From NCBI GenBank assembly GCA_950295325.1, contig OX485808.1, positions 38,956,527 through 39,020,526 on the forward strand: a stretch of 64,000 bases of DNA, written 5' to 3'. Below, piece by piece: positions 42,921-64,000 of this stretch; positions within the stretch are counted from its first letter, which is position 1, and the number at the start of each line of letters is the position of its first letter. The notes under the pieces are model-generated. The model made no database searches, was not told the DNA's origin, and saw only the letters and a program-made list of their open reading frames with translations. The stretch comes from Polytrichum commune. Taxonomy: Eukaryota > Streptophyta > Polytrichopsida > Polytrichales > Polytrichaceae. The translations under genes were made by a program, and so were the position numbers.

Positions 42921-43353
42921 AGTTACAAATGAACCAGATGAGTTTGAAAAATGACGGGTTAAGGTTGAAGACCTCAGAAAAAACTACCGACCATTCAAGA
43001 GGGATCTATGGAATACCCCCCAAATTAGTGAAGCGAAACCGAAAGGTCACAACATGGAACCGGTTGGACTTGGAAACACTAAGAGCGTGACCAATGGTGC
43101 CCAAAAGCCTCCCGGACCCTGGCCAGTTCCGCCTTCGACTGTTATGGAATGCAATAACATCTCCTTCGGGAGTTCAATTTTTACTACCGAAAGTTTTGTA
43201 GGTTGATCGAACATTATAGAGCATTAACGGTTGTGCTTGGTAACATATTACACTCTCGTTAAATAAATTATAGGATTGCAAAATTTTTGAGTAGCAACAC
43301 ACACTAACTGGGATAATCAGTGTACTTTCCATGTGACTCATGACTCATGAGGG

Positions 43354-43950
43354 TTTTTTCATCTTAGAATTGAATATGAGAGGGCTAATGGACAGTTGTG
43401 TAGTAAATATGGCAAGTGAGTGAAGGAGGGGTTGGGTTGGGGGCATCACCTAGTGATTGTCGATTGTTAGATGTAGTCGCATCATGTTGTCCACATTGGT
43501 CTGGACAGTGAAACTTTGGTGATGGACAATGACTCGTGAGGACTTTAGGGACTAACCCGCGTTTTTTCATATTAGAAATGAAAATTGAGAGGGCAATTGG
43601 AGAGTTATGTAGTAAATACAGCAAGTGAGTGAAGGAAGGGTTGGGTTGGGAGCATCACCTAGTGACTGTCAATTGTTAGATGTAGTCGCATCATGTTGTC
43701 CACATTGGTCTGGACAGTGAAACTTTGGTGATGGACAATGACTCATGAGGACTTTAGGGACTAACCCTCATTTTTTCATCTTAGAAATGAAAATTGAGAG
43801 GGCAATTGGAGAGTTATGTAGTAAATACAACAAGTGAGTGAAGGAAGGGTTGGGTTGGGAGCATCACCTAGTGACTGTCAATTGTTAGATGTAGTCGCAT
43901 CATGTTGTCCACATTGGTCTGGACAGTGAAACTTTGGTGACGGACAATGA
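43354..43950 (+). repeat. Tandem triplication, 208-209 bp period
   Basis: Three direct copies begin with TTTTTTCAT at 43354, 43562 and 43771. The last is cut off at about 43950. Copies 2 and 3 are almost identical, and copy 1 is more diverged. Each contains 'gaaggggttgggttggg'-like, 'tgtagtcgcatcatgttgtc' and 'ggacagtgaaactttggtga' blocks. It codes for nothing. Confidence 0.88.
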
Positions 43951-45014: not shown

Positions 45015-47012
45015 GTGAACACCATGTACATTAGAGTGGTATGGGGTAGGTGTGGATCTAAGAAGGGACACCAAAAACACATTTATATATGATTAAAAGA
45101 AAATGAACTATAGGGCGCAAGCATGGTCAAGTACACAACTCCATTACCCTACATAAGTTTAAATGAAAGTAATTCCAAACTATATACTAATTTTGAATTT
45201 GTGATGGAAAGAATCATAAACATTTGAAAACATATTGATCTACAAAGCCAAGCAATTTATGTAGACAAGTGTTTTTTCAAAAAAATTGTACATGTTTTTG
45301 AAGACAGTGCAAGTAGTGTGCAAGTAGGTATATTGAACACTTAATTTTTTGGAATTTTTTCAAAATATTAAAAAAATTAAATTGATGTTTTTCTACAAAT
45401 TTTGTAACAATGCCCTCAAATCTATAATGAATTAGAGGAAAATGGAAAATTTTAAAAATCAAAATATTAAGGGTCATGAAATCTACATCCAAAACCATAT
45501 TTGGCCATCACTTGTTGAGCAATATTTTTAATGATATGTTCAAAATATCTCATGTTGATAATATATATTTGAGTACATAACACAACAATAGAGGGCACCA
45601 TAAAAACAATTCCAATTTAAACAAGACTCTACTACTACTCTTAGGCATTTCGCCAAAAATATTCATGGTTTTAATATACTAGAGCATTTTTTATGTGTAA
45701 TTGATTCTGCTTGCTCAAAATTGGTAACCATTCTAGGTTCAAAAGTCAACATCATCGGGGGACATGTCTGGTTATTTTATGATCTTGTCACTTTTGACTT
45801 TGAAAAATCATATTAGTACATGAAAGCTCCAAAAATCCCACATATTGGTCCCAAAATCTCATATTACATTCACATATCAATCAATATCATACCTTCATAA
45901 CTCTAAAATCCAAGTTGAGAGTCATGATAAACATTAAAAATTAACCATAGTTGTAAAACATACCTTAGAATTAGACTGCACCATTTATGGTATTTGGTGT
46001 CATGTACACTATTTGCGACGGGCCTAAACTTAATGCCTAGAGGTTTCAAGTGTCACGTTTGCTAATTGCCAATATTATACCACTTGTCGACAACAGTAAC
46101 CTTTCCAAAAGAAAAAGTATTTATATTCAAACATTTAGTGCAATGTTGATTTTTGACAAAGTAGCTTGCCTTTCATGTGATGGCCAATTTTTACATCCCC
46201 CGTTTTCTAACAAGTTGATCAAAATTCAACAGATCTTTTGACACTTACTTTGCAAAAATTGGAATAATGCACTTGTGAGTTGAGTGCTTTCGAAAAATTG
46301 ACACTAGAATCTATCTATGCTTCAAATACAAAGAGTTACTGATAAATCAACAATGATTGGATAATTGACCCCCTTGTTGTTGAATAGCAAGCAAAGATGT
46401 GTGAAATGCAAGCTCACTAAGTTGTAACCTCCAAAAACGGTTGCAAAGGTGGATGCATGAAGCTCCAAGCATACTACATTGACAATATTTGGTGATAAGA
46501 TGTTGACAGGTATTACAAAATTTCACATGTCATGTGACATGCATATAAGGAGTTATATGTCAAGTGACAGGTTGACGGGCATGAACACGATATTAAACGT
46601 TATGGGACTTTAGGGTAATTTTGGGACTTTTGTGATGTAAGTCGGGAACTCATTGAGAACCCATTGGGAGCTTATTGGGAACTCACAGGGAACATGCTGG
46701 GCAGAACACATGCGACACAAATACTGTTTGATTCCAATGGTTGTTTGCATTAGCCATTTGGGTATCCAATGACATGCAGCCACTGGGGACCTTAGTGATG
46801 GGTCCCCACTAAGTGCCATAATGGTGAGACTCATAATCATAAATAAATTGTCATACAATATGGGAATTGCACCCACAAATGTCCTTCAATGAAACACTGG
46901 ATCTATGTTGGGAGATATGTAAATTTTTCATGTTGTGCTAAGTATAAAATCTTGCAAATTGGCTGATCTGGAAGTACTCTACATTTGTACATTGGCATTC
47001 GTAAACTATGAA
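45015..47012. other. AT-rich spacer, nothing recognised
   Basis: No coherent gene or element boundaries were seen. Around 46640-46700 the phrase 'attgggaact' / 'cattgggagc' is reiterated. This resembles the word that builds the tandem repeat at 47985-48260, so the two may share an origin. Confidence 0.35.
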
Positions 47013-47876
47013 TTACTGATTGGCCAAGGACTCAAAGATGTTCTCCAAATGAGGCTTGATTTCTAAAGATTGTTCCCACGTAACTTTCTCCATGAACACC
47101 AAGTCTGGGATCATGCTCTCGATATATGCCAATTGTTGAGAGTCAAACCCAATATTTTGTGCCGCAAGCACCACCATCTCAAGGTTGTATATGCGATCGC
47201 TGAGCAACAGACACTCCGTATATCTCTCTAGAGCAGTGGTCATGGTCGTTTGTAGTCTCATAAACTTACCCGTAACTTCATCAATCTCCGCAACTAAGTA
47301 GTTAAACTCTTCATGAATTGTACGCTCTCCCATTGGGAGCTCCATCATGCCTCTTTCCTCATCACGACGTTGTGCCAAATGACATGATTCCAACATCGTT
47401 GTGATTGGGAGGTTCTCCTCCCTATTGTCATAGACATGGTTCACCATTGCTTCTGAATGAGGATGGAGTAGGTCATCTAAATGAGGTAGGATTTCTTGAG
47501 TGGCTTCCCACATAGTGTTCTCTATCAAGTACAAATCTGGTACACGTTGTTGGAGGAACTCCACTTGTGGGATGGTGAGCCCTATATCAATAGTTGCATG
47601 CACCAATCTCCCAAGCATGTGTGCATCCATTCCAACCAAGCGGCATCCTTGATATCTATCTAGCGCAGTGGTCATATTCGTTTGTAGTTGCATGAACCGT
47701 TCCGTGCAGACATCAATTTCATTGGCTAAGTTGATAAACTCGTCGTCCATACTTCTCATTTCCATTGTAGGGTCTAACGGGCGATCCGGATCAACTGTTT
47801 GCAATCTCCGGATCCACTCCCCAAATCCAGTTGGCCGGGGAGCTGGGGAGGGGGCGGGACGCCCATCCACGACTTC
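47013..47876 (-). CDS. Terminal exon with an internal ~90-aa duplication
   Basis: A 288-codon open stretch that probably starts after an acceptor at 47877 (AAATCAG/GAAGTC). It contains two homologous modules. One has 'EFINLANEIDVCTERFMQLQ', 'TALDRY' and 'VPDLYLIENTMWEATQEI'; the other has 'EFNYLVAEIDEVTGKFMRLQ', 'TALERY' and 'IPDLVFMEKVTWEQSLEI'. The composition suggests helical, coiled-coil-like structure. I do not recognise the family. It is either the C-terminal exon of the FCP1-like gene or a separate small gene. Confidence 0.6.
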   Translation of the reverse strand, partial: EVVDGRPAPSPAPRPTGFGEWIRRLQTVDPDRPLDPTMEMRSMDDEFINLANEIDVCTERFMQLQTNMTTALDRYQGCRLVGMDAHMLGRLVHATIDIGLTIPQVEFLQQRVPDLYLIENTMWEATQEILPHLDDLLHPHSEAMVNHVYDNREENLPITTMLESCHLAQRRDEERGMMELPMGERTIHEEFNYLVAEIDEVTGKFMRLQTTMTTALERYTECLLLSDRIYNLEMVVLAAQNIGFDSQQLAYIESMIPDLVFMEKVTWEQSLEIKPHLENIFESLANQ

Positions 47877-50800
47877 CTGATTTGTACGAACACATGTGAT
47901 TAATGCAGCAACATATAAGGGCAGATTAACAGGGTCCACACATCTGTAGCTACCGTAGACGTGTTTAGGCAAGACATACATGCTTTATACATTGCGACCA
48001 ATCATGCCAGTGTTTGGGCAAGACACGTAGGTTCCATACATTGGGAGCTTCCGTGTGAAGTATTGTTGCAAGACAAACAGGAACCATACATTGCGACCAA
48101 TCATCGAAGTGGTTGGGCAAGACAAATAGGTTCCATACATTGGGAGCTTCCGTGTGAAGTATTGTTGCAAGGCAAACAGGAACCATACATTGGGAGCAAT
48201 CATGCACTTGCGATTGAAGGACAAATAAGTTCCATACATTGGGAGCATGGTTGACATCTGTACCGACTTGGCGGAAAACAATGCATTGGGTAGTGGAAGT
48301 GTTTGGCCACCTTGTATATATCAAGTCTTCCATTAACAACTGGGTACAATATGTATTCCCGCACACATTTGACACATGATGGTTCAACTTCTAGCATATT
48401 TAGGGTACAAACGGAAGATTTGTCCATCACAGGGAAGGCTCCCCTTTAGGGCATCTAAGGTGAGGCTAACCATTGGCGGACCGGGTTGAGGGGGTGTGAT
48501 GTTGGCAAGGTTAGCCAATCCAGCCTGCAATAGATGGACACCTCTTGAATTAGGGCCTCGTGACTCGATAAGAGCAATTTGATGCTCGCGGGTAGCAAGG
48601 GGTCGCGGGGGGGTCATATTGACGTCAGCAACCTGCGCGTTCAAAACAATCGTTGGTACTGTGGTAGTGACGGGTTGTGGGTCATATGTTTTGCCAATGC
48701 TCGCCAATCCAACACGCAACATTTGAACACCCCTTGAATTAGGGCCCCTTGATTCAATAAGAGAAATTTGGTACTCGCGTGTAGAGGTGGAGCGTACGAT
48801 GGGCAACGTATCAGAAGGGGGTGCAAACTCTTCCACTGCGGGTTCCATGTTGAGATCAACACCCTGCACGGTGACAAAGGGACAAGCGGGCTCTGATTTA
48901 CTAATTTACATTTTTGTCGCCATACATACATATGATTTGCAACTAAGCCTGATTTTATGCCCCACACACACTGGTGCAGCTGAAGCACAATTCCATACAC
49001 ATTCACGAAAATTTATACAAATGAGCCTCAATTGGAAATGAAATGTGTGTTTGATATTACAATAACATGTACACAATAACATTGTCAAAGTGTGAAATAA
49101 CTTAAAATTACCATAGGGGATCCATGAGTCCATTGCGAGTGGTGCAAGTGGTCTTCAGAGTGACAGGTCTTCACTGGTGGCATCTCCAATGTCTTGCTCG
49201 ATTGTGAAATGTGTTTCACCGCGATTAGACTGCGTGAATGCCCCGATGTCGGGCAGACAAAAGCAGAGGGCGTGGAACTGGAAGGTGTGTACCCAGCAGG
49301 AGGAAACTGGAGATACCATAAAATACAATGTTACATGCCATACAATACTACTTATTTATTTCCTACTTCTAGTGGAGCGAGTTCTAGAGGTTGCAACTCA
49401 AGGTCCATTGAACCTACTTATTTAGGTACTATTTCCATTGGCTTGAGTTCTACGGGTTGCAACTCGGGTCCATTGAACTTGTTGGATTGCATAACTGCCA
49501 TCTTGACTGCATCGTTATGCGGTATAGGTTGTTGCCCAAATCTACGTCTGACCACAAAATCGCGTGTGTCAGACATTGGTGAGTAGTACAATGATTCAAA
49601 GAAAGGGAGGAGAACCTTCATCATGTCTGCGTCATGGACCCGATTATTTGTGAACGAATTCGGAAATATACCACACTCGTCCGGATTGCAAACAAATTTG
49701 TAAGGGCAATCATCTACTAGAATGGTGTTTGACTCTGCAGCTGTAATCCTCCCAGAATCGAAAGATATAGGTGGCCACCAAAACTTCTTGACCAAACTCT
49801 TAAAAAACAATGGAGCTGTTGGCTTCAAAGGGTTCATCACGACATTGCCCCACATGTCCTTGAATGTGGTGCAATCCTCTTGGCCAAGTACTAAAGCTGG
49901 TTTTGGCAGCCCATCAAATAGATACTCCACCACAAGGTCGACAGTTGATTTTTTCATGGATGACCATATGCAAAGATGAAACATTGTGGACATCCGGTAC
50001 CAAAACACCTTGTATCCCAATCTAGGGAGGACAACCTTGGGCCCTACCAAGGTAGGAAGTTTGTCCGCCGCACGATCGTGCATTACCCAAGTGGGGACAG
50101 TCCCCATATTGCTGTGACGGGGGGTACAGTGGCAAAATATGCCGTTTAAATCGAACACCACAATGAACCTCTTGGCGGGCAATGCAGCAGGCGCCTGCCG
50201 ACAAGAATCCAATGTGAGCTTCTGAAATTTGCTAAAATGAACTAAACAAAGAATGACCTTGCAAATCTAGGCATGATAGAACATACCATTAATGACTTGA
50301 TTGTGCTGATTTGTAATCCACGTGTGGTATGCGAGACGTATGGGCGAACTCGAACGTGCATGGATTTATGGGCCCGGACCAATACCTCGTAGTATATCGG
50401 ATTGAATTCCCATCGAGCAGAGTACCCTAAGGAAGGATCTTCAGGATACTTAGACATTAGTCTTTTAGCACACGCAATTCCCATCTCCCTTGTGAATACG
50501 CGGATAGGCCTATTGACCTTTGGGTAGGTGTCATCGTAAACAAAGAGCTTATCATAGACAATGTGTTTTGGTATAGGCGCATCCACAGGCGTTATCGAGT
50601 GTTGTGGACCCTGAACCCAAAACTATGCGACGATAAATTAAAGAAAAGTGAAAACGTTGAAATAGGAATATGTAAATCAAAACTAATAACCTTGAGTCCG
50701 GGATGGAGGAAACTTACATTAACATGACTAGGCACCACTTTGGCAAGAGCGGCACGCCATTTGTCCTCATCTTGATTGTTGTGCATCGTCCGGAAATCGT

Positions 50801-51847
50801 GGACATCGGTGTTGTCAAATACGGGGTGGGGAGCCTTGTCGCCGCGTGGCCAACGTATCAAATACCTCTTCACTGCTTGTGGGGCATTTTTAGTGGCTTT
50901 TGGACTGTGGCAGTCCAACGGGATGATATTGACGGCACTCGACGATGCCTGCACCTTTGGAGGAATCTCTGTATTACCAACCACCTACGGCGAGATTTGA
51001 TACGTTGTCGACGACAGCTAGTGTTGGCTGGACAGACTCCAGCTCGGAGGGCCTAAGTGGAGGCTCAGTACAATGTGCCACTGGGAGGACACAGTCCGTC
51101 CCACCAATTGGTAAGATTTTCGTCTGCGGTGATCGTATTGGCAATAATGGACTATTACTTATAGTGATGATTGATGGCACATCTTGACTGGGAGAGGGGT
51201 CTAAGTATGTAGGTGGAGCACGCTTCTGCACCATTGCTGTCGTTGCGTTTAGGGGACCCATAACGGGCGAGAGTGGCATGGGATTGTCGTTGATAGTAGG
51301 TGACGTTCGAGGAGACAATGTTGCAGAGTGTGGTGGATCCACTTGTTCTGGGTTCTGCAAGGAAGCCTGTGAATTGCAAGACATCATTAAAGACACCTGA
51401 ATGCAAAATAGATACTACATGTCCAAGCCAAAGATTATACTTTATTTATAATAAATTGTGGCACATATGGCCTCATCTTCCCACAAGGGATGAATTCTAC
51501 ACTATCCTATCTAAATGTATTGAAGAAATAGGCGTCCTAGTCGACAAGAGGCTTCAAGATGCCGCGCCGTCTCCGACCTGGATCAAACATCCAGGTGGAG
51601 ATTCAGTCACTTGAACAGGGTCAAAAGAAAGTAATTAAAATGAGACGGGGTTTGAATACTTACATTGGCCTCTTCGTCGTCGGGGGTGTCCTCGGTTGCA
51701 GGTTCAGCTTCCATATGTGTGGCTCCATCCACGCGATCCACCTCCATTCCTTGGACGCCAACCTCCACTTGTGTGATATCCCTCTCGATCTCGGCAGCTC
51801 CAACGGCGACTTCCACTGTAGGGGCCAACGACGCTACCGTGTGAGCG
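47013..51847 (-). CDS. FCP1/NLI-interacting-factor-like (HAD) phosphatase-domain gene, at least 8 exons, ends uncertain
   Basis: Exons by phase and splice fit: 51847-51664, 51396-~50975, 50984-50718, 50610-50287, 50221-49430, 49306-49112, 48863-48384, 47876-47013. Joins from exon 3 through exon 7 are all phase 0. Exons 1-2 encode acidic then Pro/Ser-rich sequence. Exon 5 holds the phosphatase-like domain: FIVVFDLNGIFC, where FCP1 enzymes have DxDGT so the second Asp is Asn; then CIWSSM (usual W-T/S-S); then ILVDDCPYKFVCNP (usual ILIDDSP). FCP1-type enzymes dephosphorylate Ser of RNA polymerase II tails or other nuclear proteins. With the second Asp missing, catalysis is doubtful. Exon 7 repeats an 'IESRGPNSRGV' motif twice, and the last exon holds two ~90-aa copies of one module. 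The true 5' exon was not found, the exon 2/3 junction changes frame, and the link between exons 7 and 8 is inferred. Confidence 0.6.
47985..48260 (-). repeat. Tandem repeat, 99-bp period with ~49-bp subrepeats
   Basis: The word 'gttccatacattgggagc' recurs at 48031, 48130 and 48229, with 'gaaccatacattg' halfway between. Because 99 is a multiple of 3, all minus-strand frames stay open, giving reiterated peptides such as 'EAPNVWNLFVLP'. Whether it is translated is unknown. It lies between the last two exon candidates of the FCP1-like gene and may be an intron. Confidence 0.8.
49347..49478 (-). repeat. 66-bp tandem duplication at the end of the phosphatase exon
   Basis: 'gttctagaggttgcaactc' at 49381 and 'gttctacgggttgcaactc' at 49447 mark two direct copies. 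Only the copy at about 49413-49478 lies in the open frame; the other falls beyond the donor at 49430-49428 (GAAATA/GTACC). The duplication therefore straddles the exon-intron border and could offer alternative donors. Confidence 0.7.
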
Positions 51848-51849
51848 CT

Positions 51850-52411
51850 GAGCAGAAAAAAGTCAACGCTTTACAATTATAGTAATAAAATTTCCAAATA
51901 GAAAAAATATAAATAGAAAAAAATCATGGGACCTCTTTTTTAAGTAAAAATGATGGACCTATTTCCGTGCAAATTTTGAGGGCTTTCAGGACAGAGACTT
52001 GGTTTTAGGGTACCTTTCAGAGAGACTAGTTGACATGATTTACTTAAACCAGGGAACTTTTGACTGTCCATATTATGGTGAGAGCCGGTTAATCATAGGC
52101 TATGGTCACAACGTAAGAGAAAATTCTAAGTCAAAAAATTCAAGCATTCAAGCATTCAAGCAAAGTAGCAAAACTCGTACCATTCAATAACATCTAAAAC
52201 TACTGTTGGAAGGAGAGACCCATAAATATTTAGAAACCTTTATAGATATTTAAAAACGAATACAATTCACATCATGTAGATAATGATAGGTCTGATATAT
52301 CAGCGATATTTTCGGAAAACGTGCACTCATACTATAGTATACTCAACGCAATAATACTTAGCAACAACTTATAAATAAGGGGGGGCAGCCTACCTCCTAG
52401 AGGTATCCACG
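51850..52411. other. Spacer between the FCP1-like gene and the MULE transposase
   Basis: AT-rich. On the minus strand a pyrimidine tract and acceptor (TTTTTTCTGCTCAG) end at 51848, so an upstream exon of the FCP1-like gene must exist. I could not find it here. Possibilities are a 5' exon hidden in this stretch, or splicing from upstream sequence that overlaps the transposase. Confidence 0.4.
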
Positions 52412-55400
52412 CTAAGGTCCCACATGCTTCATGATGCCACTTTCGAGGAGGTGCTTCACTTCATTGAAACTAAGGCTCGGAGCATGGATGAAAGTGTCTT
52501 GGTATTGATCCAAGTTGCAGGTCACATGGAAGATGAAGTACAAGTGCTTGCAGTTCACCCAAGGGCGCCGCTTCCCAAGTGCTCTTGCTGACATCTCCAC
52601 GAAATCCGGGCACGTGCATGACGGGAAGGTGCTGATAGTGATACGGTACTCTTCAACCTTAGCCTTTTTTCGGGACTGGAACAGAATGATGCACCCGATC
52701 CCTGGGTGAGGTATCATTGTGACGGAGGTGATTTGACCGTTGACGTTGAGGGCTGACTCCCACTTGTTGCGTTGTTGGACGCATGGTCCGTTGTTACTGC
52801 GCCGGATCTTTTTTCCAAACCTCAGCGTAGGGTATTGATCTGCTTGGGCCGGGGTAGGGAGTTCGGCCATGGATGAAGCAACATTGGAGGAGTCGCCGAA
52901 GAGTCTTCTGGGTGACACATCTTGACGCTGCTGAAGTTGGAATCCCCCTTCTTCAAGGGCCAGAACCTCCTGGAGAGTGAGGTTTGTCCCAGTGAGGACA
53001 GGCCAGACGTCCGGGACATCCGGACGGTGCTGCACCCACTTCCTCCTAGTGCCTTTGACACATCTCTCAATGTCGTCGTTGCAGAAGAAGAACTGTGTCA
53101 AGAAGTCCTTGTTCTTCTTGTAGTCGCGCATGTAGCCGGTGTACGTAGGAGCTGGAGTACTTTTACCATGCCGAACGATCTTCTGGGTGCACTTGGTCTT
53201 TGTGCGAGCTTGCATGGCGAAGCAGGCCTTGGCGGAAGTCTTGGGCAGTCTAGAAATGTGCCACTTGGAGACATCGCAGTGGGTCTCCTGAATGTTATTG
53301 ACGTGGGTGACCCGTTGTGGAATCGATTTCTCGGGGGATTGTGTGAGGGGCAGGTATGATGGTGTGGCGGAATCAGTGCGTGCCTTGGTTGACCTAGTGC
53401 TCACTCGTGGATGAGAGAAACTGACCTTGTCGGGTCTATGTGAATCTTGATCAGAACTAGGGGGCATATCAAGTTTGCGCTTTGTGGTGCCAAAGACCTC
53501 CTCTCCTTCGAGTTGGGGTTTGCGGGTGCACCAATGCTCTGCTCCAGGCATGTGCTCGAGGGCTGCAACAATTCTCTTGGCGTCACCGGATCGTTGTGCA
53601 GCACGAAGGCGAAGTTCTTCTTTTCCTGGGCCAGTACCAGAGCGATCACCCTTCAAGTAGGCGTAGTAGTTCGTACATTGCATGAACGCCCTCACAAAAT
53701 CATCCACGGTCGCAACATACAGATCAGAGCCACGGTTTCCAGACTGCTGAAGCCATTTGTTATGGACTGTCTCGGAGAGGTTGCAAGATGGCATCTCTGC
53801 CAACTCAGAATCTGTGAAATTCTGAGAGAAGTAAATAAAATGTAGTGAGTACGCTTTGCACAAAAACAAGCCAAAAGCCTAAACTGACACCCAAAAAAAA
53901 AAAACCAAAAAAACCAAAAAAAAAACCAAAAAAAAAGTTGACACCAAAAAGCGAAATAGAAAGTGGGTGGGTACTCACTAGTTGCATGAAACCACCCCAT
54001 TGACGGTAACGAAAGTGCCAAAATGCAAGCCATGTATCAAGGTCCTTGATTCCTTCCTTGGATGCAGCTCCAGAGGAAAGCCACCATGCCTGGATGGCAA
54101 GATAACGGGACTCGGACTGCTCGGGAGTCTTGGCATCCTTGTACTGCTTGCATAACAACTTGTGTTGCTGTTGGAGGTCGGGCTTGATGTGGGTGGCGGT
54201 GTGGCGTTCCATAGACACTGTCCAATGCAATAGGCATGTCCTCTCGCGAGACTCCATAGGAACCTTGGAATCACCACTGCCATAGATAATCCTAACTGCA
54301 TTCCAATTGGCTTGTGCACTGTCCGCCATGAACCCTTTGAAGTTAACTTTAGCAATGCCATGTCTGTGCATAACTTCATTGAGCCCATGCCAAAGAAGGC
54401 TCTGTGCCGTGACATCCTCAGACTGCATATCACATATTGCAATAGTCATAACCCGGCAGTAGGCCGAGTCATAGACATGGCAAGCCATGGTTGTCCACCC
54501 CTTGACACGTTTGACATGGTCAAACATGACCCAAGCATCCTGCAAATCACCGTGTGGTTGCATTCTCTTGACAAGGTCAACTCCAGAGCCAGGGCCCACC
54601 TCGGACATCTTGAACACATAGACTTTCTCCAACAGCTTTCCTTGGCCTGGGAATTTGTTTTCTTGCACATAAGGCCAACTGCTATGACCTCTGAGTCCGG
54701 TGATGCTATCAATGATCCCCCCTCGCCCAATGCGCTTGAAGGAAGTGACAGTGTTTCGAATACTCGGGGTGCTGAGGTGTTGGTACCTGTCCATGACAAA
54801 CTTCATGGACTCCATGTCCATAACTTTATTGGGATCAGATCCCGTGCGTAGAAGATACTTGGCCAGGAACTCTTTACTTGCAGCCAATGCAATGGCAGAG
54901 TTGGTGGCGGTGGGAGTCCTCTCAACCTCTCTACCAATGAGATCATGAATTTCGACCTTAGACTCTCTACAGACACCTTGCGAAACGGGGTGATGGTGAT
55001 GACCCATATGGATGCATGCACGGGTCATGTCACCTCTACCAAGAACATAGTATATCTTAGCTTGGCAAGTATCAAGACAATAGGGTGGTGCCTTACAGAC
55101 CTTACAAACGAGAGATGACCCAGATGGGGGATCAGCTCCTACGGAGTAGGGTGAGGCGGTACAGCCTTCCCATTCGGTGTCGTTGACGTCAGTGGCTCGA
55201 TTGGGGCGGTTGAGATAATCACATCCCTTGTTATCACAACGGAGATGGCCAACACAACATGAGGACTGGAAGATCAAGCCGAGATCATTGGTAATATTAG
55301 ACGTCTTTGTCCTACACCAAGCATGACCGTCGAAATGCTTGTCCATTCCGAACATGAGTCTAGCATGGGAATGGGGAGCATCAGCTCCCAGAGGAGGGAA

Positions 55401-56087
55401 CTCAAAGATGACGTCGCCGTCAAAAACAGATGGGAGGAAGTCAACCTTCTCATGCCTAACAGATTCATAATCAATACTCTTGAGGATGTTCTTGGACCCT
55501 GGTCGGGTTGCAAGCAACTTCAATTGTTGGACAACATTGGGACGATCTATGGAGACACCTGGGTGAACTGGGGGTCTGGAAGTAGGTGGTTGACTCAGAG
55601 TAGGCGAGTGTGGAATCCTGAGAGGATTGATGAAGGGTTGATCCTGCGATGGAGGTGGGGTAAGTGAGGCAAAGTCAGAGGCAAGTGGCACATCATCATC
55701 AGAGTCATCACTGAGCAAGGTAACCTCTTGGATGCCGGGCTCCTTTTTGAGCGTCGCCAGAAGAGGAGCCTGCGTGGTGGAGGTGAGGGACACGCCTGGT
55801 GTTAGCAACACAGTAGTGGTGGCCATCTCCGACTCGGTGACGCCTATGGCCTTGTACTTTGCAGGGAGCAAGAACCAAACCCTACCATCGTCAATGCGAA
55901 AGGACATCTGAAGGACAGTGTGACTCAAGTCACCGTTGTCATCAAAGACCTCTTCCTCGACATGAATTGAATCTGGGTGGAATCTAAACCTCAGACTAAG
56001 GAACGACTCCGCGACTTTGGCTAGACCATCATCTCCAAGAGGGATCATAAGGGGGATGGAATGGTGCAGTGCTCGGATGGTGGCCAT
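52412..56087 (-). CDS. MULE-type transposase with GCM/WRKY-like zinc region and SWIM finger, 1172 aa
   Basis: Two exons, 56087-53979 and 53821-52412, join in phase 0 across a 157-nt intron (GTGAGT...CTCAG). The intron has long T runs on the coding strand. The frame is uninterrupted. Residues ~277-366 form a Cys/His cluster ending in CIHMGHHHHPV, like the zinc-binding WRKY-GCM1 fold known from some Mutator-like transposases. Residues 540-621 look like the MULE catalytic core: Asp540 (VYDSAYCRVMTIA), Asp589 (GFMADSAQANWNAVR) and the C..H signature C618-H621 (CLLHW). The third acidic residue is not assigned. Near 1105-1137 a SWIM finger (CTCPDF...CKHLYFIF, pattern CxC...CxH) follows, as usual in MULE transposases. 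Expected role: nuclear cut-and-paste transposition or, if domesticated, DNA-binding regulation. I could not find its terminal inverted repeats. The coding GC content is high compared with the spacer. Confidence 0.85.
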
Positions 56088-56880
56088 TGTAGAAGGAATG
56101 TAAATGCGAGTACCCAGAAGGGAGTGGCCAAATGGGCAATGGACTTAAGGATTAGCACAAAGTGGGGCGGTGTATATAGTGTTGTGATTAGAAGGCCATG
56201 GCAAGATGGGATCTGTGAATGACGGCGGGGACTTGGATTAGTAGGGGAATAATAAGCCGATTCATTATAGCAATGTGAATAAGAATTGAAAATGCACTGC
56301 AGCATTTACTTAAGTTAGTCATCATCATATGCCAATCCAAACCAGATATATCAAAACCAAACAATGAGGTTGGATGCCGACTCGCGAACTTATTAATACA
56401 CCAGACCACGTGAACCATTTAGTGGATGTAAGGGACACCCTAAAGGAAAGTGTTTCTTTATTAGTGGGCAAGGGTAGAGCATTCACCTTTAAGCCAGAAT
56501 AGGTTAGTTTAGTTGGAAGAGGATCGTCAATTTATGGCTATACAGATTATTTATTTCATTTAGTTTAGTTTGAAATATGTATTGTCATGTGTACTATCAT
56601 TCATTATTTTTATAAAGCATGATGCTCCTTAAATTTAGATCTTACCTGGATGATTTCAATACATGTTATTAAACATCGGTGTTCATTCTATAAGTGTTCA
56701 TTTTTATGATTCCGTATATGTTTATAGCAACTAGACTGTAATCACCATACATCGAGATTATGTGAAGGAGGTTATGGGATGGAATATAAGTGTAGATGTA
56801 ACCCAGGCGAGACACATACATTGATAGGGAGATGTTCACAAAGGAGGGTAGTGTAGAATTTGTGAAGTCGGGTCAGTTAC
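56088..56880. promoter_or_regulatory. Divergent intergenic region between the MULE and the DGNHR gene
   Basis: About 790 bp separates the transposase ATG (56087, -) from the plausible first ATG of the plus-strand gene (56881). It must hold both promoters if both genes are real. It is AT-rich in its right half. I could not identify a TATA box or a terminal inverted repeat with confidence. Confidence 0.4.
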
Positions 56881-59800
56881 ATGACAGGGTCTTCGCCGCT
56901 AGAGTTAGTGAAACCAAAGGTGAAGAGGAGGAGGAAGGCACTTTTCTCAAACAGGAAGCAAATAAGGGCATCTAGGATGAGACAGCCAAAACAACCATAT
57001 GATAACTTAAACAGCACAGTGAAGGCATTGGAATTCTCCCCAGACCGCACACGGTCAAGGTCTCGTACACGGAGAAGCCAGACTCAGAGTGGTGAAGACA
57101 TTGCTAGGAAGGGAGTTGGAGTGGGTACGACCAGACAAGTGGAGTTCCCAAAATCACATGATCTATCGAGAATTTGCGAGACCCAGGTATGAACCTCAAG
57201 TCGATGAAAACATATATGCACTAGAAATTAGGGGTAGTCATCGTGAGCTAGCGAAGGCAGCAAATGCGGGCCTGTCGAAGCACTGACCATCCAAAGGGTG
57301 GTCACAATGACACTGTCGGAAGGGGAAGGGAACAAGACTGCCGCAGCATTAACCTACCATCGTTCTTCGCATTACAACAAATCTCAGATCTAGGGTTTTC
57401 CTCCGCATACGAGGATTTCACTCTGTGGTCAGGGTTGCAGCCACGAGTTGGAGAGGGGGAGAGACTTGAGGGAAGGGCAGTGGTAGCCCAGTGGAGAGGT
57501 CTGAGGTGAGGTCTAAAAGATTTTGTGGTAATCTGATATGGGGGTCGTCCTGTGAGAGTTTTCAAGTGAGGTATAAGAGGTAATTTTTGAGCCTATTTTG
57601 GGGTCCTCCTTACAGAGGTCCGAAGTGAGTGCCCTGGGGCTCTGTCGGATCCGACAGACCGTGGAGAGCCCACTAAAGAACCTCGCAAATGTTTATTATG
57701 TGGTATAAATTTAATTTGAGGGTGCCTTTGAGAGCGGTCTGAAGTGAGGTTTGAGAGGTTTTTTTTTGTTTTTAAGTAGAGTGGTATAATGTGGTTGAAT
57801 AAGATTTGAATGTGATATGTGGTTAGGGTGCTAGTTTGAGAGCTCCAAAGGGGGGCTTAGAGGTTGGCTATAGTTGAAATCCATTTGACTTTGCTTTCGG
57901 ACAGGGCTGAAGTGAGGGCTAGTATGGTTGGATTTTATGAATTTTCTGTTTAGGGTGCAAGTGGTAGAGCTCCAAAGGGAGGGCCCTTGGCCTCTGTCGG
58001 ATCCGACAGCCCAAGGGTAGCCACCTTGGGGACCTCTCAAGTTTTTTTTTTTGCTTCAATTTGGGCTGAGGTGAGGACTGACGTGAGGGCTGGGATGGGT
58101 TTTTAAAAAAAAAATCTAGCTAATGTGCTTGTGGGAGAGGGCTTAAGGGGCCTTAGAGGTTGTCTTTTTGTTGAAATAGATTTGATTTTGATTATGGGCT
58201 CGGGCTGATGTGAGGGCTTGTATGGTTGTATTTTGTGAGATTTCTAGTTAGGGTTCAAATGAAAGAGCTGTGAAGGGGGGCTTGAGAGGTTAGTTCTGGT
58301 TGAAGAAGATTTGATTTTGATTATGGGTGAGGGCTGATGTGAGGGCTTGTATGGTTGTATTATGTGAAATTTTTGGTTAGGGTGCAAATGAGAGAGCTGT
58401 GAAGGGGGGTTGAGAGGTTAGTTCTGGTTGAAGAAGATTTGATTTTGCTTATGGGTGAGGGCTGATGTGAGGGCTTGTATGGGTTTTTTTTCTGGAATTT
58501 CTGGTTAGTTGCTAATGAGAAAGCTTTGAAGGGGGGTTTGAGAGGTTAGATCTGGTTGAAATAGATTTGATTGTGCTTATGGGCTCGGGCTGATGTAAGG
58601 TCTTGTATGGTTGTATTCTGTGAGATTTCTAGTTAGGGTTCAAATGAGAGAGCTTTGAAGGGGGGCTTAGAGGCTTCGAATTTGTTGAAATTGATTTGAT
58701 TTTGGTTATGGATGAGGGCTGAGGTGAGGGCTTGTATGGTTTAATTTTTGAATTTCAAGTTAAGGTGCTAGTGGGAGAGCTCCAAAGGGAGGGCCCTGGG
58801 CCTCTGTCGGATCCGACAGCCCCAGGGTAGCCACCTTGGGGACCTCTCAAGATATTGTTTTTGCTTCAATTTGGGCTGAGGTGAGGGCTGACGTGAGGGC
58901 TGGGATGTTTTCTTTTTCAAATTTTCTAGCTAAGGTGCTTGTGGGGAAGGGGTTAGCGGGGGTTAGATGTATTCATTTTATTGAAATCGATTTGATTTTG
59001 CATATGGGCTCGGGCTGATGTGAGGGCTTGTATGGTTGTATATTGTGAAATTTCTGGTTAGGGGGCTAATGAGAGAGGTTTGAAGGGGGGCTTAGAGGCT
59101 TGTTTTTAGTTGAAATTGATTTGATTTTGGATATGGATGAGGGCTGAGGTGAGGGCTTGTATGGTTTTAATTTTTGAATTTCTGGTTAGGGGGCTAATGA
59201 GAGAGGTTTGAAGGGGGGCTTAGAGGCTTGTTTTTAGTTGAAATTGATTTGATTTTGGATATGGATGAGGGCTGAGGTGAAGGCTTATATGGTTTTAATT
59301 TTTGAATTTCTGGTTAGGGGGCTAATGAGAGAGGTTTGAAGGGGGGCTTAGAGGCTTGTTTTTAGTTGAAATTGATTTGATTTTGGATATGGATGAGGGC
59401 TGAGGTGAAGGCTTGTATGGTTTTAATTTTTGAATTTCTGGTTAGGGGGCTAATGAGAGAGGTTTGAAGGGGGGCTTAGAGGTTTGTTTTTTGTTAAATT
59501 TGATTTGATTTTTCTTTGCAAAAGGGCTGATGCGTGGGCTCGTATGGTTTTAATTTTTGAATTTCTGGTTAAGGTGCTAGTGGGAGAGCTCCAAAGGGAG
59601 GGCCCTAGGCCTCTGTCGGATCTGACAATCCATTGGTGGCCACCTTGGGGACCTCTCAAGATATTTTTTTTTGCTTCAATTTGGTATGGATGAGGGCTGA
59701 GGTGAGGGCATGTATGGTTTTAATTTCTGAATTTCCTAGCTAAGGTGCTTGTGGGAGAGCTCCAAAGGGAGGGCCCTAGGCCTTTGTCGGATCCGACAGC

Positions 59801-62800
59801 CCATTGGAAGCCATCTTGGGGACCCGTCAATTTATTTATTTTGTTTCAATTTGGTCTCAGGTGAGGGCTTGTATGGTTTTAATTTCTGAATTTTCTAGCT
59901 AAGGTGCTTGTGGGAGAGCTCCAAAGGGAGGGCCCTAGGCCTCTGTCGGATCCGACAGCCCATTGGAAGCCATCTTGGGGACCCGTCAATTTATTTATTT
60001 TGTTTCAATTTGGTCTCAGGTGAGGGCTGAGGTGAGGGCTTGTATGGTTTTTTTTCCAAATTTTCTAGCTAATGTGCTTGTGGGAGAGGGCTTATGGGGC
60101 TTAGACGTTTGTTGTTTGTTCAATTTGATTTGATTTTGCTTATGGTTGAGGGCTATTGTGAGGGCTTTTTGGGTTGTATTTTGTGAAATCTTGGGTTAGG
60201 GTGCTAATGAGAGAGGTTTGAAGGGGGCCTAAGAGGTTAGTTTTTAGTTGAAATTGATTTGATTTTGCTTTGAGAAAGGGCTGATGTGTGGGCTTGTTTC
60301 GTTTTATTTCGTGAATTTTCTGGTTAGGGGGCTAGTGGGAGAGGGCTTAGGAGGGCTTTGAGGTTTTCTTTTTGTTGAAATAGATTTGATTTAGCTTATG
60401 GGCTCGGGCAGATGTGAGGGCTTGGATGGTTTTTTTTCTGGGATTTCTGGTTAAGGTGCTAGTGGGAGAGCTTTGAAGGGGGGCTTAGAGGTTTGCTTTG
60501 GTTGAAATTGATTTGCCTTTGCTTATGGGTGAGGGCGGGTATGGTTTTTTTTAAATTTTCTAGCTAGTGTCCTAGTGGGAGCGGGCTGAAGTGATGGCTT
60601 GAGAGGTTTGTTTTAGTTGCAAATGATTTGACTTTGCTTTTGGGAGAGGTCAAATGGGTTCCCACTTCGGAACCTTTTAAAGTGGTCATTCTTATGCATA
60701 TTTTGTTCATTTGGCTAGTCCTCACCTTTGTAACTAATTGCTTCTCAGGAGATCATTGAGATGGTGGGGGATGGAGAGTCTTTGGATGTTGGGGTTCGCA
60801 ATGGTACTAAGTCATGCCTTAGTCTTGAGGAGCATAAGGAGCAAGGGTCTCCGTTGTCACTTGCTGAAAATATTGGGCTTACACCAGGTAGTAGCGAACC
60901 CCATACACCCGGGATACCACTCTGTGGCTCACCTACAGAATCGGATGTCGGTGTTCGTGCAATGGAGTATCGGATTCGTTACAATTTAAAGAAAGATAGT
61001 TTCTCAGTTGTTGAGGGCATGAGGATACAACCGGTAAAAAAGTCCTCTATGAGAATCTCCCTCTGCACGTTGATTCACATGCCATTGGTTCGCCCAACCC
61101 TCCGCAGCGACGTTACAAAGCTCATGGCGGCATTTCAATTTGGATACTGAGCTGGGTCTGCCACTTTGTACGTGTCTACTACAAATGAGTATGGAGATAA
61201 TCAATTTATTTCTGCGAAAGACATGCGTGAATGGGGAGAGCTATGGATTGCAGAAAATGATAAGTTTGAGTCTTTTCTACGCGCGGATAAGGACTTGATG
61301 AGCCTCAATGGATGTATGTTCTTCGTGTATGATGGTAACCACCGCTTGCTTGCTTGGAAGGAGTGTATCGAATCAGATCACAAGGACGATGCACTTTGGT
61401 ATGAGAAGCATAGTTGCCCAGAATGTGTTGTCCTCGACACAACGGGTGGGCGTGGAGACGTCCTTAACGCAATGCACGACATTAACAAGTAAGTATGTTA
61501 GTTTTTCAAATTGTTTTTTCCTTCATTTTTTGATTGGCATCTAATGGCATTTATCTCAACCGCAACAGGGCTAACCAGACCGCTCACGTTAAAACTAGCC
61601 TCGTACACACTCTACACGGCATTCAAAAATACGGTTCGTATGATCTTAGCTACTACCAGCCATTATTGACCGAGGAGCAACTCCAAGCATGCAAGAGCAG
61701 AGGCCCCAAGAGCCCTTGGTACCCGCTGACCCAAGACCTTATGGTGTCCTTCATTTTCAATGTAAGTCACTCCAAATTCCTCAACCTTCTACTTCGCATT
61801 CATTACTCTTAGTCATGATCTTACAATTTCGAATATATGTTCAACAAGAGATAGCCGATGTGGTAGATGAGGCAGCCCAAATGTACAAGGAGGAAGTTCC
61901 TCCAGAGGAGCAATCTGGGAACCGGTTGGGTGAGGTATTGGACGCTGTGATTAAGAAGACGACTGAGGAACTTGGTCACAAGTTTAACAAACAACAATCA
62001 ATCGCAAACCCCGCCCTTAGAAAACAGTTCCTAGAGGAGGTACGTTTTGGTTGAATTAAATTTGAATGTCCTTATGGGAAAGGTCCTTATTGTTGAGGGC
62101 TATTGTGAGGGCTTGTATGGTTGTATTTTGTGGAATTTCAGAATTGGGGGCTAATGAGAGAGCTTTGAAGGGGCGCTTAGAGGCTTCGAATTTGTTGAAA
62201 TTGATTTGATTTTGGTTATGGATGAGGGTTGAGGTAAGGGCTTGTATGGTTTTAATTTTTGAATTTCTGGCTAGGGGGCTAATGAGAGAGGTTTGAAGGG
62301 GGGCTTAGATGTTTGTTTTTTTGTTAAATTTGATTTGATTTTGCTTTGCGAAAGGGCTAATGCGTGGGCTCATATGGTTTTAATTTTTGAATTTCTGGTT
62401 AAGGTGCTAGTGGGAGAGCTCCAAAGGGAGGGCCCTGGGCCTCTGTCGGATCCGACAGCCCCAGGGTAGCCACCTTGGGGACCTCTCATGTTATTTTTTT
62501 TTGCTTCAATTTGGTCTGAGGTGAGGGCTGGGATGGTTTTTTTTTCGCATTTTCTTGCTAAGGTGCTTGTGGGGGAGGGCTTAGGGGGGCTTAGAGGTAT
62601 TCATTTTGTTGAAATCGATTTGATTTAGCTTATTGTGAGGGCTTGTATGGTTGTATTTTGAGAAATTTCTGGTTAGGGTGCTAACCAGAGAGGTTTGAAG
62701 GGGGCCTAAGAGGTTAGTTTTTAGTTGAAATAGATTTGATTTGAATGTGCTTATGGGAGAGGTCTCAAGTGAGGGCTTACTGCTAGCATTCTTTGCAGCA

Positions 62801-64000
62801 TTTTCTGAGAATATATTCTCAAATTTACTTCGCCTTCTTTTTTGATTGCAATTGTTTCAGATTACTAGGCATTATAGCGCCCACCATTCTCAAAAGATTG
62901 AGATGACATTGGAGAAATTGCAACTTATTGCCACAGCTGCAGTGGAGCCAGAGTATAAAGTCCGTTGGTTGAAGTGGTGGAACAGTGGAAGTTTCAATCG
63001 TGAAGCTATCCGGTTTCCCAAAAGTCCTGCAAGCGAGGACACCTTGAAACCTTGGCTCAATAAAGCTGCGTTTTGGGCAGGGGTATGTCTATACTCCTTA
63101 TCCATCCTTACCTTTCAACTCTTCCTTTTGTGCCAATTCTTATCTTGGCCTTGAATTTATCCACAGCTAGAGGATGCCGCGGTCAAGGAGTTACCCGATA
63201 TACTTAATGCCTTGGGTGGGCTTGACGGAGACGTGGAAGTTGATTCATTGCCGGATTACTTGGAGAAGTGGCGAATCTGTCTCTGGGATAAGGCGTTCAT
63301 TGGTCACTTCTCAGGGTCAGATATATACGGAAAGGGGACGTGGTGGAAGGATGTCAAAGGCGCTGACAACATTGTCAAGCGCTTAATCTGTAGGTACGTT
63401 AGTTGGAAAATCTTGTGTTCACCTCATTTATTTCAAACCATTTGTTTTCTAAGTTGCTAATTGGCCTCCCTCCTTCGTTGTCAAGGTACATCAAACACGA
63501 GCTCTTCAAGAAGAAGGCTTTGAAGAAGCTCCCTCCGTTTCTTGATGCATGGTCTGATTCCTCTTCACCTACCTTCATATTTTCCCCGGCTCAAAAGCGC
63601 AACTTCTCCCTCCCGCATCTCCGCGAGTGTTGTTGGTACTTGGAATGTAAGAAGACGTGGCAACCGGATGAGGAGGCGGAGTTGAAGATTCGGCTCTCCG
63701 GTGGAGAGCCTTCCCTGCCTCCTGCTCAAAGCGATGAGGTTGTTCTCCTTGACAGTCAACTTCCGGAGGCGGATGAGGTTGTTGCGACTGTCGATGAGGC
63801 CAACACACAGAAGTCCAAGAGGAGGAAGCGTGCAACTCAAGACGAATCATCACTCAAGAAGCGCGCGAGGAAGCTCAAGACTGTGGAGGATGATCCCCCT
63901 CCCCCTGCTTCACCTGAGGCGGCAGTTGCATCTACTCCATCTCTTAGTGAAGTTCCTACTCTATCCAGGCCACCTCCTCCGCCCATTCTTTCATCTACTA
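56881..64000 (+). CDS. DGNHR-motif (ParB/sulfiredoxin-fold-like?) nuclear protein gene, at least 7 exons, runs off the window
   Basis: Exons: 56881-57186 (least certain), 60749-61488, 61569-61761, 61851-62039, 62861-63082, 63167-63393, 63486-64000 and beyond. All joins keep phase with good GT-AG sites. Exon 1 encodes a basic Arg/Ser-rich segment. Exon 2 encodes 'FVYDGNHRLLAWKE' (DGNHR codons start at 61331). A D/G-x-N/x-H-R box next to a helix is typical of the ParB/sulfiredoxin nuclease-like fold, but this is a motif-level guess. Later exons have Trp-rich segments (KVRWLKWWNS, KWRICLWDKAF, GTWWKDV) that I do not recognise. The last exon has a bipartite nuclear-localisation-like stretch (KSKRRKR...KKRARKLK) and a Pro-rich tail. 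An in-frame TGA at 61148-61150 interrupts exon 2, with the same frame continuing coherently after it. So this copy may be a pseudogene, or the stop may be a recent mutation or a sequencing error. Introns 1 and 4 are filled by a shared satellite. Confidence 0.6.
57600..60660 (+). repeat. ~128-bp satellite array filling intron 1 of the DGNHR gene
   Basis: Direct repeats of a G-rich unit. In the clearest part the word CTGGTTAGGGGGCTAATGAG starts at 59054, 59182, 59310 and 59438, an exact 128-bp period. Related 'ct.gttag' words at 58244, 58373, 58501, 58629 and 58756 keep 127-129 bp. Units share 'ctgaggtgagggcttgtatgg', 'tttgaaggggggcttagagg' and 'gaaattgatttgatttt'. Some units are longer (~170 bp) because they carry a GGCCC..palindrome..GGGACC block. 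Each unit contains AGGTGAGGGC, which resembles a splice donor. Confidence 0.88.
57642..57657. repeat. 16-bp palindrome CTGTCGGATCCGACAG, first of seven
   Basis: A perfect palindrome found at 57642, 57994, 58804, 59943 and 62443, and with changes at 59613 (ends TCTGACAA) and 59784 (starts TTGTC). In the best copies (58804, 62443) it is nested in a longer hairpin with CCCTGGG on the left and CCCAGGG on the right. It is followed by 'ccaccttggggacctctca' in most copies. It could be a stem-loop in the transcript or a dimeric protein-binding site. Confidence 0.85.
62060..62770 (+). repeat. Second block of the same satellite, in intron 4 of the DGNHR gene
   Basis: Same units and same orientation as the intron 1 array ('gagggcttgtatggttgtat', 'gctaatgagagaggtttgaag', 'gatttgattttg'), including one palindrome unit (62443-62458) with the flanking GGGCCCTGGGCC context. 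It occupies nearly all of the 821-nt intron 62040-62860 and stops short of the exon borders. The four short introns of the gene (80, 89, 84 and 92 nt) lack it. Confidence 0.85.

Follow-up and report, generated by a model that had tools for sequence, protein, structure and literature searches.

A 64,000-bp stretch of the Polytrichum commune genome (assembly GCA_950295325.1, contig OX485808.1, positions 38,956,527 to 39,020,526, forward strand; here called the window) harbors a transposon in which a transposase gene and a divergently oriented gene for a protein with a DGNHR motif lie between a single pair of ends and are mobilised jointly. These two genes are the only ones recognised in the element, which by its anatomy is labelled here a putative two-gene, Mutator-like transposon; transposase profiles do not confirm the label. 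Palindromes occur as arrays in the DGNHR introns and at the element's right end; their arms vary between families, and the core TCGG-nn-CCGA is common to them. We propose that the DGNHR protein might bind these arrays in its own element, acting as an anti-silencing or self-regulating factor like VANC for VANDAL elements, a proposal whose prospects we judge evenly balanced.

Ends, target duplication and empty site

The window was compared, together with 10 kb beyond it, with four other copies of the element (C1, C2, C3, and C5). The boundaries, common to other copies, lie at 51826 and 66044 and enclose 14,219 bp, of which 51826 to 64000 is inside the window; the right end is 2,044 bp beyond the window end. 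Similarity sets in at 51826 in C3 and C5 and at 51830 in C1, and stops at 66044 in C3 and C5, at 66047 in C2, and at 66029 in C1, the true right end of which was placed separately. Comparison of the element ends revealed a left terminal repeat, CAACGACGCTACCGTGTGAGCGCTGAGC (51826 to 51853, plus strand), and the right end, which reads CAGGAATGCTACGATGTGAGCGGTGAGC when inverted, is an imperfect inverted copy of it with GAGCGGT repeats. Short imperfect terminal inverted repeats, GCTACnnTGTGAGCGGTGAGC, are accordingly present at both ends.

The element is flanked by a 10-bp target duplication, CTGTAGGGGC, at 51816 to 51825 and, beyond the window, at 66045 to 66054. The window copy and those on C3 and C5 each have a perfect duplication, which makes three of the four copies having both ends; no matching 10-bp duplication was found in the C1 copy, and the C2 copy is without a left end. 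Moreover, a C3 paralogue matches the window from 46581 to 51825 and then continues unbroken from 66045, with CTGTAGGGGC present once there and twice in the window. Since this paralogue is continuous across the insertion point (an empty site), the element must have inserted into another, outer element, which bears an FCP-like gene and is described below.

A preliminary description of this DNA had seen one copy and no terminal repeats, but terminal repeats, a 10-bp duplication, and further copies exist. The shared boundaries, terminal repeats, and target duplication that it suggested looking for were found for the transposase-DGNHR element; target duplications of Mutator-like elements (MULEs) are generally 8 to 11 bp according to passages of PMC6446971. 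The transposase gene by itself, which would have been bounded within about 52 to 57 kb, was rejected as the mobile unit because the boundaries at 51826 and 66044 take in the DGNHR gene.

Linkage of the two genes in the genome

The host genome searched comprises 408 Mb in 64 contigs, seven of them large, and the window lies on contig C6. It gave 58 matches to chlorophyll-binding proteins, marking it as that of a green plant; the PDB relatives of one of these are headed by 9vfj_2, 8htu_U, and 7xqp_a, the last two being structures from moss. Searches with the transposase exon yielded 63 scored matches among 2,533 candidates and those with the DGNHR exon 150 among 1,111, both lower bounds. Every match of these two sets, and of the 63 obtained with a further transposase, D7, as the query, was counted for linkage. 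A DGNHR gene was present within 20 kb of 34 of the 63 scored transposases, divergent in 34 of 34, against an expectation of 0.9 from random placement (maximum of 4 in 200 trials). When the matches of the D7 query were added, linkage was seen for 60 of the 126 transposase loci (58 divergent) and for 62 of the 142 DGNHR loci (60 divergent), and placing the DGNHR loci at random gave 2.0 (maximum of 7 in 300 trials). Among the best 45 DGNHR matches, 31 were linked to a transposase, all divergently. The other 14 showed no scored transposase within 20 kb, with two having one within 32 kb; this may reflect real loss or the fact that only part of the candidates was scored.

The search with the FCP exon gave 148 scored matches, split ones included, of which 93 were used after omission of the weakest and a few split ones, corresponding to 92 loci after merging. 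Only two of these loci, one being the window itself, were located within 20 kb of a transposase (random placement, 1.2; maximum of 5 in 300 trials). The preliminary description had named unlinked homologues as evidence against a common element, and this is what was observed for the FCP-like gene, but not for the transposase and DGNHR genes.

The transposase

The transposase gene is located on the minus strand. Exon 1 (53979 to 56087, in an open frame from 53955 to 56090) encodes a Cys-rich segment and a D...D...CxxHW core, and exon 2 (52412 to 53821, likewise open) a SWIM-like CxC...CxH pattern, which reads CTC...CKH in the window. Exon boundaries and splice sites of this gene and of the DGNHR gene were placed by eye. 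Of the apparently intact GCM/SWIM MULE transposase of the preliminary description, the long open, transposase-like exon and the CTC...CKH pattern were confirmed, but the domain assignment found no counterpart in Pfam: exon 1 gave only a sub-threshold match to Antitox_RHH (E = 0.067) and none to MULE or SWIM families, and exon 2 gave nothing at E ≤ 1, though the CxC...CxH pattern is visible. For PF10551 (MULE DDE transposase), there was no Pfam match with either the window or the D7 transposase, and the window transposase was not among the 142 PF10551 matches in the genome (150 of 271 candidates scored). Alignment with PF10551 members by hhalign was not significant; one alignment pairs the D...CxxH segment.

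Ratios of nonsynonymous to synonymous substitution rates (dN/dS) were 0.26 to 0.51 in 8 of 15 transposase pairs. The two closest pairs, with few changes, were higher (C3-C5, 1.16; C2-C1, 0.71), and the five pairs with D7 were saturated. The D7 transposase, which differs from that of the window by a dN of 0.41, retrieved the 63 further matches counted above, 15 of which are full-length and 98 to 100% identical to the query, indicating that this family moved recently. The locus C7:11384000-11401999 (L014/L015) belongs to the family with this recent burst, and 13 CTGTCGGATCCGACAG sites, a palindrome introduced below, are found there at a spacing of about 170 bp.

The DGNHR gene

The gene on the other side runs on the plus strand and has at least seven exons. 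Exon 1 (56881 to 57186) is an open frame encoding a basic stretch (KVKRRRK...) conserved in copies. Intron 1 (57187 to 60748) consists of degenerate, G/T-rich tandem repeats of ~128 bp and shows a GC skew of 0.45. It is followed by exon 2 (60749 to 61488), encoding a core that resembles ParB/DGQHR proteins at the motif level, and by exons 3 (61569 to 61761) and 4 (61851 to 62039). After a second repeat-bearing intron (62040 to 62860), exons 5 (62861 to 63082), 6 (63167 to 63393), and 7 (from 63486 on) encode a Trp-rich part and a basic tail and continue beyond the window. The G/T-rich tandem repeats with palindromes, absent from the preliminary description, occupy 57.5 to 60.7 and 62.1 to 62.8 kb.

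As the preliminary description had stated, a DGNHR motif is encoded from 61331 on in this divergent right-hand gene. In the window, exon 2 contains an in-frame TGA at 61148 to 61150, a position that is open in many other copies. For this exon, dN/dS was 0.19 to 0.49 in 14 of 23 pairs, with synonymous sites saturated in the other 9. DGNHR is invariant in 15 aligned members, and the DG[NQ]H motif follows a hydrophobic strand. In the DGQH family of the outer element, GQH is invariant in 8 members and preceded by D or N. A single-sequence structure model of the DGNHR domain was not usable (mean predicted local distance difference test score, 30.8).

The coding strand of sampled DGNHR-family introns is rich in G and T, with a GC skew of 0.19 to 0.49 in all eight stretches, compared to -0.01 over positions 1 to 46580 of the window. 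Such a strand could favour R-loops.

Palindrome arrays

Intron 1 of the window's DGNHR gene contains the palindromes TCTGTCGGATCCGACAGA (57641 to 57658), CTGTCGGATCCGACAG (57994 to 58009, 58804 to 58819, and 59943 to 59958), and TGTCGGATCCGACA (59785 to 59798). CTGTCGGATCCGACAG recurs in the second repeat-bearing intron (62443 to 62458), and AGGCCTCGGATCCGAGGCCT and AAGAGGCCTCGGATCCGAGGCCTCTT are located close to the right end of the element. In total, nine perfect palindromes of at least 14 bp (with at least 4 G/C) were counted in the 14.2-kb element, while first-order shuffles of it contained 0.64 on average (50 shuffles) and at most 3 in another 50; positions 1 to 46580, used as a control, contained 4. 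The core TCGGnnCCGA occurs eight times in the element, six times in the DGNHR introns and twice near the right end, and was absent from positions 1 to 51826 and 66045 to 74000. Across six copies, 52 of 65 TCGGATCCGA sites had at least three more matching arm bases per side, for which chance is 1 in 64 per site.

In the 408-Mb genome, CTGTCGGATCCGACAG was found 374 times, whereas about 0.1 occurrences are expected by arithmetic and the reversed control gave none. Site positions were evaluated for the first 50 listed per pattern (of 374, 997, and 199 for CTGTCGGATCCGACAG, GTGTCTCGGnnCCGAGACAC, and CTCGATCGAG, respectively). For CTGTCGGATCCGACAG, 46 of these 50 have a DGNHR gene no more than 10 kb away, compared to 1% of random C1 positions within 15 kb. 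At C1:14070221-14078033, four CTGTCGGATCCGACAG sites are separated from the closest listed DGNHR fragment by at least about 36 kb.

Other families carry other palindromes, in which the core is kept and the arms differ. The one in the C1 copy is TATGTCGGATCCGACATA. At L040, where the DGNHR exon is about 55% identical to that of the window, the palindrome is GGTGGTGGTCGG(GT/AT)CCGACCACCACC, and at L041 and L043, from DGNHR families at 41 to 43%, it is GTGTCTCGGnnCCGAGACAC, which occurs 997 times in the genome, with 36 of the 50 listed sites within 5 kb of a DGNHR gene. Two comparisons show that the palindrome follows the DGNHR gene and not the transposase. D7 has a DGNHR exon 86% identical to that of the window, a distant transposase, and the same palindrome, while the transposase next to the L040 DGNHR gene is 74% identical to that of D7 and the palindrome is a different one. 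C1 is not explained in this way.

A satellite at C1:465500-473500 (L056) consists of units of ~138 bp that run in both directions and contains the 20-bp palindrome GTGTCTCGGTACCGAGACAC; coding matches to DGNHR, transposase, or DGQH were not found in it.

An outer element carrying the FCP-like gene

The FCP-like gene to the left is part of a separate outer element, which comprises a DUF7869 gene and a DGQH-motif/FCP gene and generates a 4-bp duplication. The left part of this element occupies 46584 to 51825 (minus strand), beginning with the terminal repeat AACACGATATTAAAC... and continuing into the 3' part of the FCP gene. The terminus at 46584 is common to two paralogues and resembles those of relatives with both ends; a search as far as 74000 did not reveal the right terminus of the window's outer element. 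Those relatives (G2, G3, and F4) have terminal repeats like AACACTATATTAAAC, and 4-bp duplications were identified in three of three; in G2, the repeats are 31 bp long and 97% identical.

The FCP/NIF-like domain exon (49418 to 50266, minus strand) represents a separate repeated gene family and matches Pfam NIF with an E value of 2.6e-10. DxDx is the catalytic motif of FCP/SCP phosphatases. Here, DLN replaces DxD, in the form DLNGI in the window and in the relative L037 (two copies examined), bearing out the degenerate FCP1-type domain of the preliminary description, which was also right about repeat-built sequence at this gene (near 48 kb).

Linkage within the outer family was counted for the first 54 of 129 DGQH matches and the first 73 of 103 DUF7869 matches. 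An FCP exon accompanies a DGQH-motif exon on the same strand within 20 kb in 49 of 54 cases, and a DUF7869 gene is present within 20 kb in 46 and within 50 kb in 52 of 54, always divergent. The DUF7869 domain (Pfam PF25273) was recognised with an E value of 4.9e-40, and from its position we infer that this protein is the transposase of the outer element. One DUF7869 match (C6:39068016) is on the same contig as the window; the name DUF7869 was not mentioned in the open-licence PubMed Central papers searched.

The palindromes of the outer family are different and contain CTCGGCCGAG (F3 and F4) or CTCGATCGAG (G2 and G3). A DGQH exon lies no farther than 15 kb from each of the 50 listed CTCGATCGAG sites (199 in total) and no farther than 5 kb from 38 of them. 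Short TTTAGGG telomere-like runs were observed in the C2 copy of the outer element (L036:57-77 and 1332-1352). Elsewhere, a 209-bp tandem repeat (2.9 copies) is located at 43353 to 43950 of the window, and a cluster of 14 chlorophyll-binding protein matches with equal best score at C5:1.75-1.85 Mb.

Possible function of the palindrome arrays

In the proposed mechanism, the DGNHR protein, presumably nuclear and ParB/DGQHR-like, would bind the palindromes of its own element as a dimer, load onto the arrays, and keep the element out of host silencing; alternatively, it would regulate transcription and transposition of the element. Arrays and protein would co-diverge, so that each family serves itself, and the second, different transposon with its DUF7869 and DGQH-motif/FCP genes would follow the same plan. 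A half-site common to the families, a free 2-bp centre, and arms that vary but often stay palindromic appear to fit recognition by a dimeric protein better than a bare hairpin. Anti-silencing would be the leading function because of the precedent of Arabidopsis VANC21, whose short target motif has built up into tandem repeats within introns and upstream of genes in its own VANDAL element, where VANC21 binds it and removes methylation (PMC5735166 and PMC10398659, passages), and because Mutator elements with accessory genes such as mudrB and vanC are known (PMC6446971, passages). We infer that direct regulation of transposition would rank closely behind.

A broader version would have two kinds of plant transposon adopt one module, a divergent gene for a ParB/DGQHR-like protein that reads intronic palindrome arrays. 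Such a module would resemble ParB-parS but be eukaryotic and selfish, its protein and sites diverging in step, and would help the element to resist silencing or to organise its chromatin. This is tentative and, in our view, rather doubtful.

Several observations weigh against binding of the arrays by the DGNHR protein. On the protein side, the relationship to ParB/DGQHR proteins consists of motif-level and sub-threshold similarity: neither the DGNHR nor the DGQH family had a significant match among Pfam, PDB, or PHROG profiles, nor the DGQH family in NCBIfam. The best PHROG ParB values were 0.11 for DGNHR (10 of 15 members) and 0.014 for DGQH (1 of 8), and TIGR03187 (DGQHR) reached 0.22 with the DGQH family (2 of 8 members). 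Unrelated families score equally well or better (e.g., Phage_tube_C, 0.0034, 1 of 15 DGNHR members). The PDB profile search gave no match for DGNHR and seven weak chains of a bacterial toxin component for DGQH (0.019), which were taken as chance, and in an hhalign comparison of the DGNHR and DGQH profiles only the motif aligns. On the DNA side, 4 of the 50 listed CTGTCGGATCCGACAG sites are more than 15 kb from a DGNHR gene, and a satellite without DGNHR, transposase, or DGQH matches accounts for 13 of the 50 listed GTGTCTCGGnnCCGAGACAC sites. The C1 copy has other arms despite a transposase close to that of the window and a DGNHR identity of 85%, and its arms match over at least 4 bp in no more than 5 of 11 sites. 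L042, from a DGNHR family at 41 to 43%, has a single inverted repeat only, and the window's outer copy has no perfect 14-bp palindrome in 66045 to 74000. In close copies, the palindrome is kept no better than its flank, as judged by eye. The inverted-repeat control, positions 1 to 46580, also exceeds its own shuffles (12 versus 4.1). Finally, nothing in the parts of PMC5735166 consulted presents the VANC motifs as palindromes.

The palindromes could instead be structural by-products of an intron-expanding satellite, with hairpins or cruciforms driving amplification in the absence of any protein partner and the DGNHR protein acting as a mudrB-like helper. We consider this unlikely. It would accommodate the array-only satellite at C1:468-472 kb, the equal conservation of flank and palindrome in close copies, and the variable number of palindromes among copies; two symmetric C2 variants, moreover, are of the C-to-T type at CpG/CHG and could result from deamination. 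The common TCGGnnCCGA core with differing arms and a 2-bp centre that need not pair, however, looks more like two protein half-sites than a simple hairpin. Furthermore, every DGNHR family examined has palindromes (L042 a single one), as does a transposon family of another kind, and the C1 arms, which differ by transversion on both sides, still pair in 5 of 11 sites.

Less probable still, and in our judgement improbable, is that the palindromes are transposase sites or a cis-regulatory switch of the divergent gene pair and that the DGNHR protein acts as a further subunit in transposition. Intron 1 holds the first sites, at a distance of about 1.5 kb from where the transposase starts, another two are no more than about 420 bp away from the element's right end, and those of the outer family are upstream of both genes, as such a role would allow. 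Yet six of the eight TCGGnnCCGA sites are in DGNHR introns and none is at the left end, and the terminal repeats hold a different motif, TGTGAGCGG. The shared palindrome of the window and D7, in spite of their distant transposases, and the different one at L040 also speak against it, with C1 fitting poorly.

The composite of transposase, phosphatase, and DGNHR gene envisaged in the preliminary description, in which all three are adjacent in the window, survives only as the pair of transposase and DGNHR gene and is rejected with next to no residual probability, given that the FCP gene lies outside the boundaries and the target duplication, that the paralogue provides an empty site, and that 90 of the 92 FCP loci show no linkage to a transposase.

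If the DGNHR and DGQH proteins do bind the palindromes, this would represent sequence-specific self-recognition of transposons outside VANDAL and by another type of protein. Each family would then offer a matched protein and target site, and co-evolution of protein and DNA specificity would therefore be directly testable; the proteins could also serve as tools for the local undoing of silencing in plants. That the inner and outer elements share one plan may hint at a common way in which transposons shield themselves against silencing.

Relation to known systems

An earlier description of the transposase-DGNHR architecture or its parts was not found in the open-licence PubMed Central papers searched. 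Bacterial ParB/parS systems and DGQHR proteins combine a DGQHR/ParB-type motif with palindromic sites near their own gene. In contrast to these, the DGNHR family has no significant profile match and another palindrome, and it belongs to a plant transposon and not to a partition system. The DUF7869 family (PF25273) differs here in having terminal repeats, 4-bp duplications, and a DGQH/FCP gene as its partner. Like MuDR of maize (mudrA and mudrB), the inner element has the anatomy of a two-gene Mutator element in which the function of the one accessory protein is not clear (PMC6446971, passages); its DGNHR gene, however, has at least seven exons as placed by eye, palindromes in its introns, and an orientation divergent from that of the transposase. 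The closest likeness appears to be to VANDAL21/VANC, a Mutator-like element that has an accessory gene and in which short motifs specific to the family have accumulated as fast-evolving tandem repeats, both in introns and upstream (PMC5735166 and PMC10398659, passages). When compared by architecture, the inner element would differ in its palindromic motifs and in the DGNHR motif of its accessory protein, and it shares with VANC-type elements that the non-coding parts of an element contain arrays of a motif specific to its family.

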